From an uncultured Alistipes sp. (GTDB lineage: Bacteria; Bacteroidota; Bacteroidia; Bacteroidales; Rikenellaceae): DNA of 64,000 bases. Position 1 is the first letter of the stretch. The number at the start of each line of letters is the position of its first letter. Below are positions 1 through 5,376 of the stretch, piece after piece. The stretch covers positions 124,001 to 188,000 of the forward strand of contig CALUIK010000003.1 of NCBI GenBank assembly GCA_944320685.1. The letters run 5' to 3'. The notes beneath the pieces are model-generated. The model saw only the letters and a list, made by a program, of their open reading frames with translations, was not told where the DNA came from and did no database searches. Position numbers and translations under genes: made by a program.

Positions 1-96
1 ATAATCGACAAGGCCGATGGATTAATGAGATGGAAATTGAAAATTAACAGTCCGGAGAAAATTGCGGAAGTCGGAAGATGGCCGACCCAGTTTTAA
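1..96 (+). CDS. C-terminal tail of an unidentified protein cut by the window edge
   Basis: The first reading frame is open from the first base to a TAA at 94-96 and encodes 31 residues with a plausible, mixed composition rich in Lys, Ile and Trp. I do not recognise the family. It could be the end of a real gene entering from the left or chance coding in an AT-richer, decayed region. The frames that follow to about 410 are open only in pieces and look like remnants rather than a gene. Confidence 0.3.
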   Translation: MIDKADGLMRWKLKINSPEKIAEVGRWPTQF

Positions 97-623
97 GGCG
101 GGTTGCGACAGGATGGCGGTTTCATGCCATTACCCGTTGCAAGCGGAACATCGCAAAGGAGCTTCGGGGCAAAGTGAACGAACCGGCGCCAGATCCAACG
201 AGTATGTGGACAAGATGCGGTGGTACTCCCTTCATGAACATAAGCTGCCGCCATTGACCGGCTTTAGCCTGAACGCATTGGACTTTTCTGAAAGGGTAAT
301 CCAAAAGTTGCGCAAGTTGAAGAAAGTAAGGTTGAAAGGCTATTCCTGTTCTCTCGAGTTTGACTGGAAGTTCAGCGACAAGAGTGCGGCTTTCCAGTTT
401 ATAGGATAAGGCAAGGACATTACCGCTATGCGTGAATCGTAAATGATATACCGCTTGTGCAATGGCTCAGGCGGAAAGCGAATGAATAACCGGTTTGGGG
501 ATTGCATCTGCAAAGCAGGATAAAGGGCTGAAAATAATATAGTGTGTAGTCTAAAATCCACTTTAAAAGCAAATAAAAACACTATAAATTAAATATTATA
601 TAGGAGATCACCGAGAAAATCCC

Positions 624-631
624 TATATTTG
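624..631 (+). promoter_or_regulatory. Candidate -7 box (TATATTTG)
   Basis: The box matches the Bacteroidota TAnnTTTG consensus. No TTG-type -33 element is seen at the usual spacing, so this is weaker than most boxes in the window. If active, its transcript would carry the long hairpin element and then the broken lipoprotein gene. Confidence 0.4.
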
Positions 632-696
632 TAATCGGATTGAGGCGACTCTTTCCAAGACATGCGATAAAAAGAAGAAGCGTTATGCGCATCAGG

Positions 697-814
697 TATT
701 TGGAAACGTAGGAAATTTTCAAATTGCATACCCGGATGGCATAGTGGTTCTCACGCTATAGCGTGGGCTGCTATAACTACATCTGTATGCAAGGTTTCCT
801 ACGACCTCCAAATA
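697..814 (+). repeat. 118-nt imperfect inverted-repeat element (long hairpin)
   Basis: The left arm (697-731) and right arm (785-814) pair through TATTTGGA, CGTAGGAAA and GCATAC blocks separated by small internal loops. The centre carries the self-complementary CACGCTATAGCGTG (752-765), so the whole element folds into one long interrupted stem. A second, truncated copy of the central block (TGGCATAGT...CTCACG) lies just downstream at 821-838. No transposase is next to it. It could be a non-autonomous mobile palindrome (REP/MITE-like) or a structured RNA. The function is unknown to me. Confidence 0.6.
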
Positions 815-895
815 AAGACGTGGCATAGTTGGCTCACGTTTTCAATATAATAACATCTTGTTGATAGGGGCAATCGAAAATATAATAACTACAAT

Positions 896-1434
896 ATGAA
901 TAAACTTATCGTTTCATTTCTGCTCTCAGCTGCTTTTCTGGCATCGGCTTGCAGCGATGATGGGCCTAAAGATTCAGTCAAAGAGATTAGAATGCAGGTC
1001 TCAGCAGAAACAGGCGTAATGTATGTATGGGGCGACGACAAGAAGGAGAATCCCATCGAGTGTATGCTTGTCATGTCGGAAGATAATCCCGGAGTATGGG
1101 AATATATTACGGCGATGGCTCATCGCTGCCGTCATACGACAACGCCCGTATTTGGTTGGAAGATGTCCTTGACAAAGGAGACCCCAATTGGGTGAAATTC
1201 GAGTCCGTGCCTTACATGGCAATGTATTCGTTTGTTCTGTCTCCGTTCACCGATGACATTCGATTGGTAAGCAACGGTTCACATGGTCCGATGTTCAAAA
1301 GCGTCATTCCCGAAGATGAGTTTACCCGTATTCAATCCATGCAGTCCGGTGAAGAAGTCCGTTACGCACTCATCCTTGCCAATGTTTATAAAAAGGGACT
1401 TCAAAAGTTGGAATTTACCGTTAAAAAGCGATAA
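896..1434 (+). pseudogene. Small lipoprotein gene interrupted by a single frameshift
   Basis: The first frame begins with a lipoprotein signal peptide (Lys-Leu charged start, hydrophobic core, lipobox ending in Ala-Cys at residue 19). It reads sensibly for about 66 codons to roughly base 1095. From about 1096 the sense reading continues in the -1 frame for 112 codons to a TAA at 1432-1434. Joined, they make one ordinary secreted lipoprotein of about 178 residues of unknown family. The switch falls near GGGAATATATT, and loss of one base explains it. A sequencing error or programmed slippage cannot be excluded, but the next gene downstream is also broken, which favours real decay. Confidence 0.6.
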
Positions 1435-1970
1435 CTCTATAGACTTCAACTGGAGATCAGGCCAATTTCCCGATCAAGCCATGTTTCATAACGAGGATGA
1501 GATAACAGTTTGACGCTGTTCACTGCCAAGAATATGACAAGGGTATAAAGAGATTTTGTGGTAGAAAAACAAAAAGTTTGAGAATATAGTTTCAGCCGAA
1601 GGCTTGCAGCATAGAGGTAAGTCCATTGCCCAACGGCAAAAACATATATCTGGTTGGCTGTTGTTCGGCATATCTACATTCATGGACGTTCCCATTATTA
1701 TGGGGCAGTGAAGCCTGCTGCCTTTGTCAATTATATGGGTATATAATAATGGGTATATATAGGACATCTGCAGACCCCATTGACTTGGGCCGTTGCAGTT
1801 TTAGCTTCAATCTGCTTATATTTATACCGCACGCATGATCCCGTTGCACGTCATAATCTGTTTAACTTTACCTGTCGGTTCAAATTAATCTGTGTTTATG
1901 CGGCTTTCCCAAGTGGGATAATGACGGGCTTGTCTTCCGTAAAATGCAGATGGGCGGGCTTGATATGTGC
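1435..1970. other. Non-coding or decayed stretch between two broken genes
   Basis: All frames are interrupted. A short hydrophobic run (around 1778-1835, reading like a membrane helix) may be the N-terminal remnant of the membrane protease whose C-terminal half is recognisable just downstream. The tandem-like ATATGGGTATATA pieces at 1731-1760 are simple AT-rich repeats. I see no RNA gene or promoter here. Confidence 0.4.
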
Positions 1971-1972
1971 GG

Positions 1973-2245
1973 GCTGAACGCGTTGGTTTACAAATAGCTG
2001 TTTGGGCCATTGCTTTCGGGATTCTTCATTTTTCATGGTCGCTGTTTGGCGAAGCCTAAAAAACGGAATATGCCCGGCAGTGTCAACCATTGGTTTAGGT
2101 CTTTTCCTTGGCTTCATTATATGTCGTAGCAGGACGCAATGTCTTATCCGCAACCGTAGCCCATGTGGCTATAAATCTGCTTGTCGAGCCATGGCTGATA
2201 TTGAATGCGGCCAGCTCTACTGATGTCGGGGCGGCCATAGGTAAA
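1973..2245 (+). pseudogene. Remnant of a CPBP-family intramembrane protease (Abi/Rce1-like)
   Basis: Three pieces in two frames line up in the order of the CPBP C-terminal half. The first is a segment reading AERVGLQIAVWAIAFGILHF followed by SWSLFGEA, which carries the family's FxxxH motif and then meets a TAA at 2057. A piece in the other frame reads STIGLGLFLG. The original frame then resumes with a stretch containing YVVAGRN and AHVAINLL, which carries the family's last conserved His/Asn motif. A stop plus two compensating frameshifts (one at an A6 run near 2058) show that it is dead. CPBP proteins are membrane metalloproteases involved in prenyl-protein-type processing or bacteriocin self-immunity. 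The assignment rests on motif order only. Confidence 0.55.
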
Positions 2246-2443
2246 CGTAGCGCAGTAAAAAACAGTGACGTACGGGCAAGACGATGCAGTCTGCGGCAAT
2301 CGGGACGGTTGCAGGGCCATTGCCCCCGAAACGGGGCGTTTCGTCTGCGGCCGTGCGGCTGTGAGATTTACCTTATTTGTTCGTGAAATTGTCCGGAAAG
2401 GCATTTTTCCCCGTACACAACGGAATATTACGGTCTAAATGCG

Positions 2444-2451
2444 TATATTTG
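2444..2451 (+). promoter_or_regulatory. -7 box of the steroid/bile-acid reductase operon
   Basis: TATATTTG, a perfect Bacteroidota -7 element, lies about 80 bases before the first gene of the three-gene operon. No comparable box occurs between those genes, so they are probably one transcript. The -33 region is poor. Confidence 0.65.
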
Positions 2452-2530
2452 CCATATTGCATTCCTTCGCCGCCGACATGCCGCATTGAGCGTCAGTTGC
2501 GGCGAGGCATTGCGGTACAAGCGGCGGGCC

Positions 2531-3304
2531 ATGATGGAAAATTATAATACTGCGTATAACATATTCTTGGCGGTGATGGCCGTCATCGCGCTGGGCGTCT
2601 TCGTGGCGCTGCACTTTTTCGAGGCCGGCTACGGCTACCTGTTCGACCGACGTTACGGTCCTCCTGTGCCAAACAAGGCGGGATGGGTGCTTATGGAGTC
2701 GCCCGTCTTCATCTTGATGTGGGTGCTGTGGGCTTGTTCCGACCGTATGTGGGATGCCGTGCCGCTTGCATTGCTGGCAATGTTCCAGCTGCACTATTTC
2801 CAACGGTCGTTCGTCTTCCCGCTTCTGATGCGCGGGAAATCGAAGATGCCGCTCGGTATAGTGCTTATGGGCATGGTGTTCAATACGCTCAATGCCCTGA
2901 TGCAGGGCGGGTGGATATTCTATTTCTCGCCCGAGGGCTATTACGACGGATGGTTGGGCAAGCCGTTCATATATGTGGGCACCGTACTGTTCTTTGCCGG
3001 CATGTTCATAAACCTGCAGTCGGACTATATCATACGCCATCTGCGCAAGGAGGGCGACACGCGCCACTACATTCCCCGCGGGGGCATGTTCCGTTATGTC
3101 TCGTCGGCCAACTATTTCGGCGAATTGCTCGAGTGGACGGGTTTTGCCATAGCGTCGTGGTCGTGGGCGGGTGCCGTGTTCGTGTGGTGGACCTTCGCCA
3201 ATCTGGCGCCGCGTTCGGCCTCGCTCTACAAACGCTACGAGCGGGAGTTTGGCGAGGAGTTCACCTCGCTCGGCCGCAAACGCATCATCCCGTTCATCTA
3301 TTGA
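2531..3304 (+). CDS. Steroid 5-alpha-reductase family membrane enzyme (DUF1295/3-oxo-5-alpha-steroid 4-dehydrogenase)
   Basis: A 257-residue polytopic membrane protein with about six hydrophobic segments. The C-terminal third carries the family signature: a GDTRHYIPRGG segment followed by YVSSANYFGELLEW, an NLAPRSASLYKRYEREFGEEF stretch, and a basic-hydrophobic end. The family reduces the delta-4 double bond of 3-oxo-steroids with NAD(P)H to the 5-alpha (planar) product. The open frame reaches further upstream but has no ATG there. ATG-ATG at 2531/2534 is the sensible start. It is first in a tight operon with an old-yellow-enzyme-type reductase and an SDR. That set is the enzyme combination reported for conversion of 3-oxo-delta-4 bile acids to allo/isoallo acids in gut Bacteroidota. 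Substrate is inferred from context, and related DUF1295 proteins can have other lipid substrates. Confidence 0.85.
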   Translation: MMENYNTAYNIFLAVMAVIALGVFVALHFFEAGYGYLFDRRYGPPVPNKAGWVLMESPVFILMWVLWACSDRMWDAVPLALLAMFQLHYFQRSFVFPLLMRGKSKMPLGIVLMGMVFNTLNALMQGGWIFYFSPEGYYDGWLGKPFIYVGTVLFFAGMFINLQSDYIIRHLRKEGDTRHYIPRGGMFRYVSSANYFGELLEWTGFAIASWSWAGAVFVWWTFANLAPRSASLYKRYEREFGEEFTSLGRKRIIPFIY

Positions 3305-3310
3305 CTGTAA

Positions 3311-4567
3311 ATGGAGAATACTATGGATAAGGATCTGAAGGATTCGAAACTTTTTACCCCCTACAAACTGGGGCCCGTGACGTTGCGAAACCGCACGATA
3401 CGATCGGCGGCATTCGAGTCCATGGGCAAGGATTTCGGCCCGACGCAAAAATTGAAGGATTATCATGTGAGTGTCGCGCGCGGGGGCATTGGCATGACCA
3501 CGCTGGCCTACGCTTCGATCAACCGCAGCGGCGTGTCATTCAACAGCCAGCTGTGGTTCCGCCCCGAGATCGTGCCGGCGCTGCGTGACATAACGGACGC
3601 CATACATGCCGAGGGCGCAGCCGCAGGCATACAGATCGGACATTGCGGCAACATGACCCATTGGTCGACTGCGGGATGTTTTCCCGTCTCGGCCTCGAAC
3701 GGCTTCAATCTCTATTCTCCGACATTCCACCGCCGCCTGCGCCGCGACGAGATTACGGAGATGGCGCGCGACTTCGGCCGCGCCGTCGGGACAGCGCACG
3801 AGGCGGGATTCGACAGCGTGGAGGTGCATGCAGGCCACGGATACCTTATCTCACAGTTCCTTTCACCCTATACCAACCGCCGCCGTGACGAGTTCGGCGG
3901 CTCGCTTGCCAACCGCATGCGTTTCATGGAAATGTGTCTCGAGGAGGTGATGGAGGCGGCTGCGCGCTGCCGTATGGCCGTGTTGGTGAAACACAATATG
4001 GAGGATGGCTTCCGCGGCGGCATTGAGGTGCCCGAGTCGATAGAGATAGCCAAGCGCATAGAGTCGTTCGGGGTCGATGGCATCGTGCTCTCGTCGGGAT
4101 TTGTGTCGCGTGCGCCTATGGCCGTCATGCGCGGGCGCATACCCACCAAGACGATGGGATACTACATGCCGTGGAAGATGTGGCCGCAGAAGATCGTCGT
4201 GTCATTGTTCGGGCAGTGGATGATAAAGCAATACGATTTCGAGGAGTGTTTTTTCCTTGAGAATGCCAAGCGTTTCCGCCGCGAGCTGAAATGCCCGCTG
4301 GTATATGTGGGCGGCCTTGTGTCGCGTCGCGGCGTCGAGCGTGTGCTGGACGAAGGTTTCGAGATGGTGCAGATGGCACGTGCACTGGTGAACGATCCTG
4401 CGTTCGTGAACCGCATGCGCGACGGCGACATTGATACCCGTTCAGGATGCGACCATAAGGATTACTGTATAGCACGCATGTATTCGATCGACATGCAGTG
4501 CTGCCATAACTGCCCCGACCTGCCGGACAAGATATGTCGGGAGCTCGGATTACCCCGCAGACGATGA
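3311..4567 (+). CDS. NADH:flavin oxidoreductase, old-yellow-enzyme family (BaiCD/5-beta-reductase-like)
   Basis: A TIM-barrel FMN enzyme of about 418 residues, which reduces activated C=C bonds. Visible landmarks are the N-terminal LFTPYKLGPVTLRNR strand, the GIQIGHCGN substrate/FMN segment, the HAGHGYLISQFLSPYTNRR catalytic motif and the GGLVSRRG phosphate-binding end. It lacks the second NAD/FAD domain of full-length enoate reductases such as BaiCD (over 600 residues). It ends in a cysteine-rich tail (Cys380, 386, 397, 398, 401, 409) that could hold an Fe-S cluster or zinc. It starts 6 bases after the upstream reductase. GGAG before the second ATG (3323) makes that a possible alternative start. 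With its neighbours it probably reduces 3-oxo-delta-4 steroids or bile acids, perhaps to the 5-beta form. Confidence 0.82.
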   Translation: MENTMDKDLKDSKLFTPYKLGPVTLRNRTIRSAAFESMGKDFGPTQKLKDYHVSVARGGIGMTTLAYASINRSGVSFNSQLWFRPEIVPALRDITDAIHAEGAAAGIQIGHCGNMTHWSTAGCFPVSASNGFNLYSPTFHRRLRRDEITEMARDFGRAVGTAHEAGFDSVEVHAGHGYLISQFLSPYTNRRRDEFGGSLANRMRFMEMCLEEVMEAAARCRMAVLVKHNMEDGFRGGIEVPESIEIAKRIESFGVDGIVLSSGFVSRAPMAVMRGRIPTKTMGYYMPWKMWPQKIVVSLFGQWMIKQYDFEECFFLENAKRFRRELKCPLVYVGGLVSRRGVERVLDEGFEMVQMARALVNDPAFVNRMRDGDIDTRSGCDHKDYCIARMYSIDMQCCHNCPDLPDKICRELGLPRRR

Positions 4568-5376
4568 GCAGGAAGGATCGTTTTGCCGCAGGTACGCGTA
4601 CGGCGCTGGTTACGGGTGCGTCGAAGGGCATAGGCCGCTGTTATGCCCTGCAGTTGGCGCGCGAGGGATACAATGTGGTGATGGTTGCCGTGGACGAGGA
4701 CGAACTTGTACGTACGGCCAGTGAGGTGCGTGCGGCAAATCCGCAGGTGCAGGTGCGGTGGCTGTCGAAAGACCTTGCTACGCCCACGGCGGGGGAGGAG
4801 CTTTTTGCATGGGTAAAGGCCGAGGGCATCGAGACCGACGTGCTGATAAACAATGCCGGAATATTCTCTTTCTGCGACATATTGAATACCCCCATCGAGC
4901 GTATCAGCCGCATCATCATGCTGCATGACCTTACGGCTACGGTGACGTGCCGTCTGTTTGCGGCCGACATGGCTGCGCGCGGCTGGGGGCGCATACTGAA
5001 CATGTCGTCGTATTCGATATGGATGCCCTACCCGGGGTTGTCGCTATACAGCGCCAGCAAAGCCTACCTGAAGAGTTTTTCGGTGGCATTCTCGAAGGAG
5101 GTGCGCGAACTGGGGGTGACGGTGACAGCGGTATGTCCAGCAGGTATCGCCACCGATCTGTACGGCCTTGCGCCGCGATGGCAGAAGATCGGGCTGCGCC
5201 TCGGTGTACTCATGTCGCCCGAGAGTTGTGCGCGCCGCTCGCTGCGTGCCATGTGGCGGGGGCGGCGCTGTATCGTCCCCGATTGGTGGTTCCGTCTTTT
5301 GATCCCGTTTTGCAGGATGGTGTCGGGCCCCGTGATGAGGTGGCTGCGTAACTTTACTATGCCTTTCCAGAAGTAG
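4564..5376 (+). CDS. Short-chain dehydrogenase/reductase, probable 3-beta-hydroxysteroid dehydrogenase
   Basis: A 270-residue classical SDR. It has the cofactor loop TGASKGIG (residues 17-24), NNAG (96-99), catalytic Ser148/149, Tyr162 and Lys166 in YSASK, and a PAG turn after strand six. The C-terminal 40 residues are aromatic and hydrophobic, as in membrane-associated 17-beta-HSD12-like enzymes. ATG overlaps the preceding stop (ATGA), so translation is coupled to the flavin reductase. Operon context suggests oxidation/reduction of the steroid 3-hydroxyl, feeding or following delta-4 reduction. The stereochemistry (3-alpha or 3-beta) cannot be read from sequence. Confidence 0.85.
   Translation: MSRKDRFAAGTRTALVTGASKGIGRCYALQLAREGYNVVMVAVDEDELVRTASEVRAANPQVQVRWLSKDLATPTAGEELFAWVKAEGIETDVLINNAGIFSFCDILNTPIERISRIIMLHDLTATVTCRLFAADMAARGWGRILNMSSYSIWMPYPGLSLYSASKAYLKSFSVAFSKEVRELGVTVTAVCPAGIATDLYGLAPRWQKIGLRLGVLMSPESCARRSLRAMWRGRRCIVPDWWFRLLIPFCRMVSGPVMRWLRNFTMPFQK

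Follow-up and report, generated by a model that had tools for sequence, protein, structure and literature searches.

A 118-nt hairpin in an Alistipes genome is the central rod of a conserved structured RNA, a probable 5′ leader of mobile cargo genes in Bacteroidota

A 118-nt hairpin found in a 64,000-nt stretch of an uncultured Alistipes sp. genome (contig CALUIK010000003.1, positions 124,001–188,000 of the forward strand; this whole stretch is called the window, and positions refer to it) forms the central rod of a conserved RNA that is larger than the hairpin. This RNA occupies approximately positions 624–842 and extends to position 877 when its last hairpin, P5, is included. Comparison of its copies makes it probable that the rod belongs to a structured RNA of about 205 nt, which serves as the 5′ leader of the following gene and controls this cargo gene. 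The leader, found before many unrelated genes of mobile DNA in gut Bacteroidota, probably governs their expression. The features of the window copy are listed in Table 1.

Table 1. Features of the RNA copy in the window and of its neighbouring genes.
Feature	Position	Strand	Basis
Mob relaxase gene, decayed C-terminal remnant, pieces in different frames	134–536	+	tblastn, Mob profile
Promoter −7 box TATATTTG	624–631	+	TAnnTTTG conserved in copies
5′ hairpin H1, GGATTGAGG..CTCTTTCC	637–656	+	putative transcript start about here
Conserved box GAAGCGTTATGC	677–688	+	column conservation of about 0.9–1.0 in 68 copies
Possible 8-codon leader ORF, function doubtful	685–711	+	early stops in frame
Rod, 118-nt hairpin	697–814	+	fold; RNAalifold, pair counts, mutual information (111 copies)
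Tail GTGGCATAGTTGGCTCACG and short T-run	820–842	+	conserved in 68-copy alignment
Hairpin P5, between tail and cargo start	861–877	+	loop–tail pairing
Frameshifted cargo gene, DUF4377 lipoprotein relative	896–1434	+	ORFs 896–1195 and 1096–1434

The hairpin itself was correctly delimited in the initial annotation: its arms pair over exactly 118 nt and are centred on CACGCTATAGCGTG (752–765). Folding of the region 690–845 gave a minimum free energy of −60.4 kcal/mol against −35.3 (sd 3.5) in 200 dinucleotide-preserving shuffles (z = −7.1), none of which was as good. The trailing partial repeat was also recovered, since the left-arm block GGCATAGTGGTTCTCACG occurs again in the tail as GGCATAGTTGGCTCACG, ending at position 838. 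An alignment of 68 copies with their flanks revealed that the conserved unit (approximately 611–842) is larger than the hairpin. A TAnnTTTG box is followed in turn by a small hairpin, the box GAAGCGTTATGC, the rod and a tail of the form GTGG..CACG with a short T-run.

The box TATATTTG, previously described as promoter-like, has the TAnnTTTG form, which is given as the Bacteroides −7 consensus in the available text of PMC7366714. It was found at the fixed place in 137/151 unique full-length copies (146/151 in a relaxed form; 1.2% in shuffles) and in 102 of the 111 non-redundant copies (1–2% in shuffles); when the place was not fixed and duplicates were included, 163 of 168 copies contained it. 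Transcription would start near position 637, just 3′ of this box. A −33 promoter element was not visible upstream of the RNA copies, which is a point against the leader reading.

The pairing was analyzed in 111 copies that were less than 90% identical to each other. Double changes were found in 25 of the 37 tested pairs, and the number of double-changed cells was 461, compared with 156 (sd 12) when partners were shuffled and 23–92 when they were slid. In the 5′ hairpin H1, double changes occurred in 6/6 tested pairs, with 83–89% of the cells paired. Mutual information calculated without a given structure ranked the same helices at the top (z up to 33), and RNAalifold supported the rod in the same copies. 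Since G–U cells in the rod greatly outnumber A–C cells (481 versus 55), it is the + strand that folds. Judging by these pair counts, the rod structure is genuine and the + strand forms it. In addition, covariation with local partners was found for the 5′ strand of the rod (62 double-changed cells versus 18.6 in shuffles). As both the local and the long-range partners covary, two mutually exclusive folds have each left a trace.

The BLASTN search and the stem covariance test proposed in the initial annotation both gave positive results. The lack of any second copy and of compensatory changes had been set there against its own reading, and both copies in other genomes and compensatory changes between them were found. 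In the window's genome, the BLASTN search revealed one full copy and no second. Matches were present in 38 of 151 genomes of the genus (E ≤ 0.01; the weakest are 22-nt matches), in 34/393 genomes of the order (E ≤ 1e-4), in 7 plasmid records and in one record of a phage. Scanning the named genomes for the pattern gave at least 119 stretches, labelled as Bacteroidales except for four metagenome bins named as other bacteria (L096, L126, L137 and L151). The combined set comprised at least 189 copies in 187 loci, with 172 unique sequences, some of them partial.

The covariance model (R1) recognized the RNA in 53 of 198 Bacteroidales genomes and in 24 of 395 genomes sampled from the whole phylum, of which 21 lie outside the order and contain one or two divergent copies (41–78 bits). 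The highest copy number was at least 11 per genome, copy numbers being lower bounds because up to 11 (Bacteroidales) or 5 (phylum) candidates were scored in each genome. The window leader scored 220 bits, and a divergent second copy was found by the model in the same genome (G000:C4:95812–96026; 54.6 bits, E 2.7e-9). This second copy (loci L221 and L243) has a strong T-run, a small ORF starting MKKSTVTRAYVAPVVDVESINVEKGF about 70 nt further on and then a lipoprotein-like ORF. A doubtful match on the minus strand just before the window start (G000:C3:123786–123983; 26.7 bits, E 0.006) could be a decayed second copy or chance.

The same anatomy was found in distant Bacteroidota copies. Inspection by eye showed that the hairpins are retained in the divergent copies L193, L194, L195, L197 and L202, as is P5 with its match to the tail. 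Relatives of a second kind (e.g., L198, L203, L207–L210 and L213) have a T-run of 6–9 and no gene within approximately 200 nt, and divergent HTH genes adjoin several of these (by eye). The relatives in loci L224–L236, from genomes outside the order, precede TonB-receptor/SusD genes, often beside a divergent HTH gene; of two HTH genes tested, that of L234 matched HTH_3 over the cut-off and that of L228 just below it. A cluster of large co-oriented proteins is encoded downstream in 11 of 12 such distant loci (on the other strand in L240), at 228–318 nt in seven loci and further away in the remainder. The one downstream gene tested, that of L224, encodes a TonB-dependent receptor and is followed by a SusD protein gene.

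The position of the RNA relative to its neighbours was determined in 163 unique copies. The next ORF was co-oriented with the RNA in 152 copies, opposite in 4, and missing or at the edge in 7, while the upstream ORF was co-oriented in 92, opposite in 63, and missing or at the edge in 8. With next ORFs starting with ATG (161 copies), the counts were 151 co-oriented, 5 opposite and 5 missing; the window copy, whose gene is dead, was for this reason scored as one of the five opposite. The median distance from the RNA to the ATG was 47 nt. Between the RNA and an ATG located 10–120 nt away, a TAnnTTTG box was found in 2 of 96 copies, with about 3% expected by shuffling. Constant orientation, close spacing and a conserved structure with compensatory changes are the characteristics of a cis-regulatory leader. 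The promoter box, the pairing, the co-orientation and the absence of a second promoter box together led us to consider the RNA as the 5′ leader of the next gene, and the predicted action in cis is well supported.

Hairpin P5 could be called in 110 of 111 copies within the 48 nt that follow the tail. Its contact with the tail was evaluated from a fixed anchor, using the loop of the best hairpin in these 48 nt, a stretch that can overrun the ATG. The tail–loop pairing score was 6.10, compared with 3.36 when loops were swapped between copies with different tails and 2.61 after shuffling (110 copies). The matching pairs include CAGTTCC with GGAACTG, GGCTC with GAGCC, AGTCCG with CGGACT and GTGCCA with TGGCAC; the window copy, with a score of 4.7, is a weak match. 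In an earlier analysis of tail-to-gap pairing, in which the anchor was misplaced in some copies, 34 of 111 copies exceeded the 95% null level versus 11% in swaps. No covariation of the tail with the inner arm of the rod was found in 111 mobile-type copies (7.19 versus 7.16 swapped, a comparison of little power), which also speaks against the leader reading. In 25 distant copies the corresponding scores were 10.9 and 9.33 (p 0.0005), although five rows (L197, L199, L205, L210 and L216) were misplaced and remained in the comparison.

In the proposed mechanism, RNA polymerase would start behind the TAnnTTTG box and transcribe first the 5′ hairpin, next the long rod and the tail, in most copies also P5 just ahead of the start codon, and finally the cargo gene. 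Refolding of the RNA would control cargo expression. The putative switch elements are the 5′ strand of the rod, with its two covarying partners, and the tail, which would pair either with itself or with the P5 loop. Such control would most likely act on the mRNA near the cargo start codon, since P5 sits there and the T-run is weak in mobile-type copies. As regards intrinsic termination, the longest T-run is 2–4 in 99 of the 111 non-redundant mobile-type copies and 6–9 in several distant relatives. The leader would thereby provide mobilizable elements with a portable unit of control over any cargo that they carry. Against this reading, it should be noted that the start, the read-through and the effect on expression are deduced from sequence comparison, that the downstream genes have no common pathway, and that the second-kind relatives would fit a free RNA or an attenuator equally well.

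The 151 first downstream genes formed 77 clusters, and 20 of the 77 cluster heads or special cases were analyzed by profile scan. The cargo includes Erm(F) and the MUN beta-lactamase (blaMUN), both over the profile cut-offs, and a relative of lincosamide nucleotidyltransferase, below its cut-off. A DarT-domain protein and BspA-type repeat, trypsin-like and esterase-domain proteins were also found. By a crude N-terminal rule, 95 of 151 cargo proteins look exported, versus 210 of 721 other ORFs (119 named loci among the matches listed); the p value of about 1e-14 ignores relatedness. Downstream genes of one pathway, as expected for a riboswitch, were not found in the 77 clusters, which contain unrelated domains, and no ligand can be suggested since no pathway is shared. 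In locus L016 (1–1500), erm(F) begins 60 nt after the leader and a Mob-like gene lies 33 nt before it; the leaders of L017 and L057 are similar. The leader upstream of erm(F) in L016 may set the expression of this gene.

In annotated plasmids and many other loci, the RNA is located inside mobilizable elements in the order mob–RNA–cargo. The Bacteroides uniformis plasmid pBUN1 contains, in succession, genes for an integrase, a hypothetical protein, a DUF5906 primase, a toprim protein and MobV, then the RNA and blaMUN-1; its record has no feature over the RNA, although RNA genes are absent from its gene table as a whole. An iterated profile search revealed a Mob-like ORF just upstream in no fewer than 38 of 163 copies, one of them that of the window, and this number is a lower bound because contig ends and decay hide others. 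In Bacteroides finegoldii plasmid 55 (L035), the RNA and its cargo are head-on to the mob-like gene, as if the cargo block were inverted.

In the window, the region 134–536 was matched in three pieces by the upstream ORFs of L143, L078, L109 and L131 (tblastn). Those of L078 and L109 match Mob_Pre over the cut-off and that of L143 weakly (E 3.3e-4, below the cut-off); the stop-to-stop piece of the window itself belongs to the set of Mob profile hits. On the other side, the lipoprotein gene is frameshifted, as had been described, and consists of two ORFs in two frames. Neither piece matched a Pfam family. Relatives of this cargo follow the same leader in L102 (276 aa, matching DUF4377), L169 (273 aa), L010 (268 aa) and L107 (140 aa), and the DNA of the window matches L169 over 616–1102 and L010 over 597–1101. 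No transposase was seen beside the hairpin, in agreement with the earlier description, as the five flanking ORFs scanned between positions 62 and 2223 matched no Pfam family. Relatives of the integrase, primase and toprim genes were not found in the 20 kb upstream of the window copy with the queries used. The Mob gene in pieces and the frameshifted cargo gene indicate that the window holds a dead mobilizable element with a still recognizable leader. Since both neighbouring genes, the mob gene on one side and the lipoprotein gene on the other, are dead, the window copy is probably a relic. The 118 nt that looked like junk in a decayed zone can be read as the marker of a dead mobilizable element.

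A related case is L220 (G408:C55:76059–76187), which lacks everything between the direct repeats GGCATAGT..CTCACG and precedes a gene for a related lipoprotein of 269 aa. Its appearance, judged by eye, is that of a deletion that arose naturally via recombination between the left arm and the tail.

Several other explanations were considered. The best of them is a leader-peptide attenuator, in which a ribosome on the ORF at 685–711 would pick the fold and the cargo would answer slowed translation, like the tetQ leader of CTnDOT. In the available text of PMC5418344, the latter is likewise a long structured 5′ leader that is located on a Bacteroides mobile element and controls a cargo gene. A start and a stop within 8 codons are present in 150 of 152 mobile-type copies, the rod stop triplet is in frame in 49 of 53 copies without an early stop versus 22 of 99 with one, and Erm(F) and the lincosamide-transferase relative are among the cargo. 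However, stops within 8 codons also occur in the other two frames (124/152 and 45/152), the frame pattern is explicable by shared descent and pairing, and distant relatives inspected by eye lack the ATG. Moreover, the model gave no match at E ≤ 5 in the single locus whose tet(Q) gene exceeds the cut-off or in nine loci of weaker relatives; homology to the tetQ leader is not supported. A leader peptide is thus considered unlikely, though it deserves attention.

Less likely still is a free-standing, trans-acting sRNA that would end at the tail hairpin and T-run, the cargo being merely adjacent. Its own promoter box, the many copies in some genomes and the strong T-run of one distant kind (L198, L203, L207–L210 and L213) are consistent with such an RNA. 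An sRNA of this type would be independent of the orientation of the next gene, but the orientation is constant (152 to 4), and for this reason the trans-acting sRNA was rejected as the main reading. In addition, the cargo has no other promoter box in 94 of 96 copies, and P5 covaries with the tail although it lies beyond the T-run. The reading as an autonomous RNA that ends at a terminator of its own was dropped because the downstream genes are co-oriented and because of this covariation of P5.

It is very improbable that the element acts at the DNA level, as an origin of transfer or a single-strand origin in folded single-stranded DNA. The RNA stands directly behind Mob-like genes in 38 of 163 copies and one strand tolerates G–U/G–T pairs, as would suit such a function, but the promoter box is present in 137 of 151 copies and the position ahead of a gene is constant. 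The distant relatives, moreover, keep the structure beside SusC/SusD and HTH genes, with no Mob among the three sorts of neighbour tested.

Of the two possibilities named in the initial annotation, the structured RNA is borne out by the compensatory changes, the one-strand wobble in the rod, the conserved promoter box and the constant orientation to the next gene; the other, a non-autonomous mobile palindrome (MITE or REP), to which the inverted-repeat shape and the scatter over many genomes would correspond, is not supported and is considered extremely improbable, since the window's genome has no second near copy (and not the many near-identical copies of a MITE or REP), the orientation to the next gene is constant, the unit of the annotated plasmids and of many other loci lies inside mobilizable elements (mob–RNA–cargo) and divergent copies have evolved by compensatory pairing.

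To evaluate the novelty of the leader, it was compared with known RNAs. Rfam 15 gave no family match in window positions 1–3000 at E ≤ 1. In 12 further loci at E ≤ 1, three matches to microRNA models were found, all below the cut-offs and none on the RNA; in 10 loci at the gathering cut-off, there were two tRNAs and nothing on the RNA. P4 CI-RNA and the c4 antisense RNA were considered as analogies. No account of this leader was found in the titles and abstract openings of open-licence literature among the matches listed. Structured leader RNAs are a known kind; one leader before many unrelated mobile cargo genes is unusual.

One published candidate is HMP2_4078 (Fremin and Bhatt 2021, PMC8040213), a palindromic RNA of 109 nt from Bacteroidetes that is located near D5_N and phage-integrase domains. 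HMP2_4078 may be the rod of the present RNA, the two being compared by description; the available part of that description contains no promoter, leader role, P5 or link to cargo. FopS/GibS of B. thetaiotaomicron is also a multi-copy RNA family of Bacteroidota. According to the accessible text of PMC11697453, however, FopS has a single-stranded 5′ stretch and a terminator hairpin and acts in trans on SusC-type mRNAs; it is in Rfam, and no Rfam match of FopS to the present RNA was found. Another structured RNA of the mobilization region of a mobilizable element is sgm-sRNA of Salmonella genomic island 1, reported in the excerpted text of PMC9299015 as needed for transfer of the island, whereas most copies of the present RNA have no detected adjoining Mob gene. 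The Transposase-resistance motif (Weinberg 2010, PMC2864571) is described, in the part of the paper available, as a candidate cis-regulatory RNA whose name ties transposases to resistance genes; this motif is listed there as ambiguous, in several phyla and with no Rfam number, and was compared by description.

If the leader represents an undescribed family, about a quarter of the sampled Bacteroidales genomes have it by the model, and it precedes surface and drug-resistance genes that are exchanged among gut bacteria. Should it control the cargo, it would show how one ready-made switch allows a mobile element to carry cargo of any kind, and there would be a testable reason why such Bacteroides genes could be silent or inducible. 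A broader reading, which we regard as speculative and put forward tentatively, is that the leader could be a universal control cartridge throughout the phylum. Unrelated cargo, mostly exported proteins but with resistance genes such as erm(F) and blaMUN among them, would be placed under one host signal by a bistable RNA whose kissing interaction lies at the start codon, and the chromosomal relatives would stand before SusC/SusD operons beside a Cro/C1-type regulator.

In addition, three consecutive genes were found 3′ of the relic (2486–5376), which encode a steroid 5-alpha-reductase-like protein (PF02544), an old-yellow-enzyme-like flavin oxidoreductase (PF00724) and a short-chain dehydrogenase (PF00106). 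This trio presumably resembles the bile-acid or steroid reduction clusters of gut Bacteroidales.
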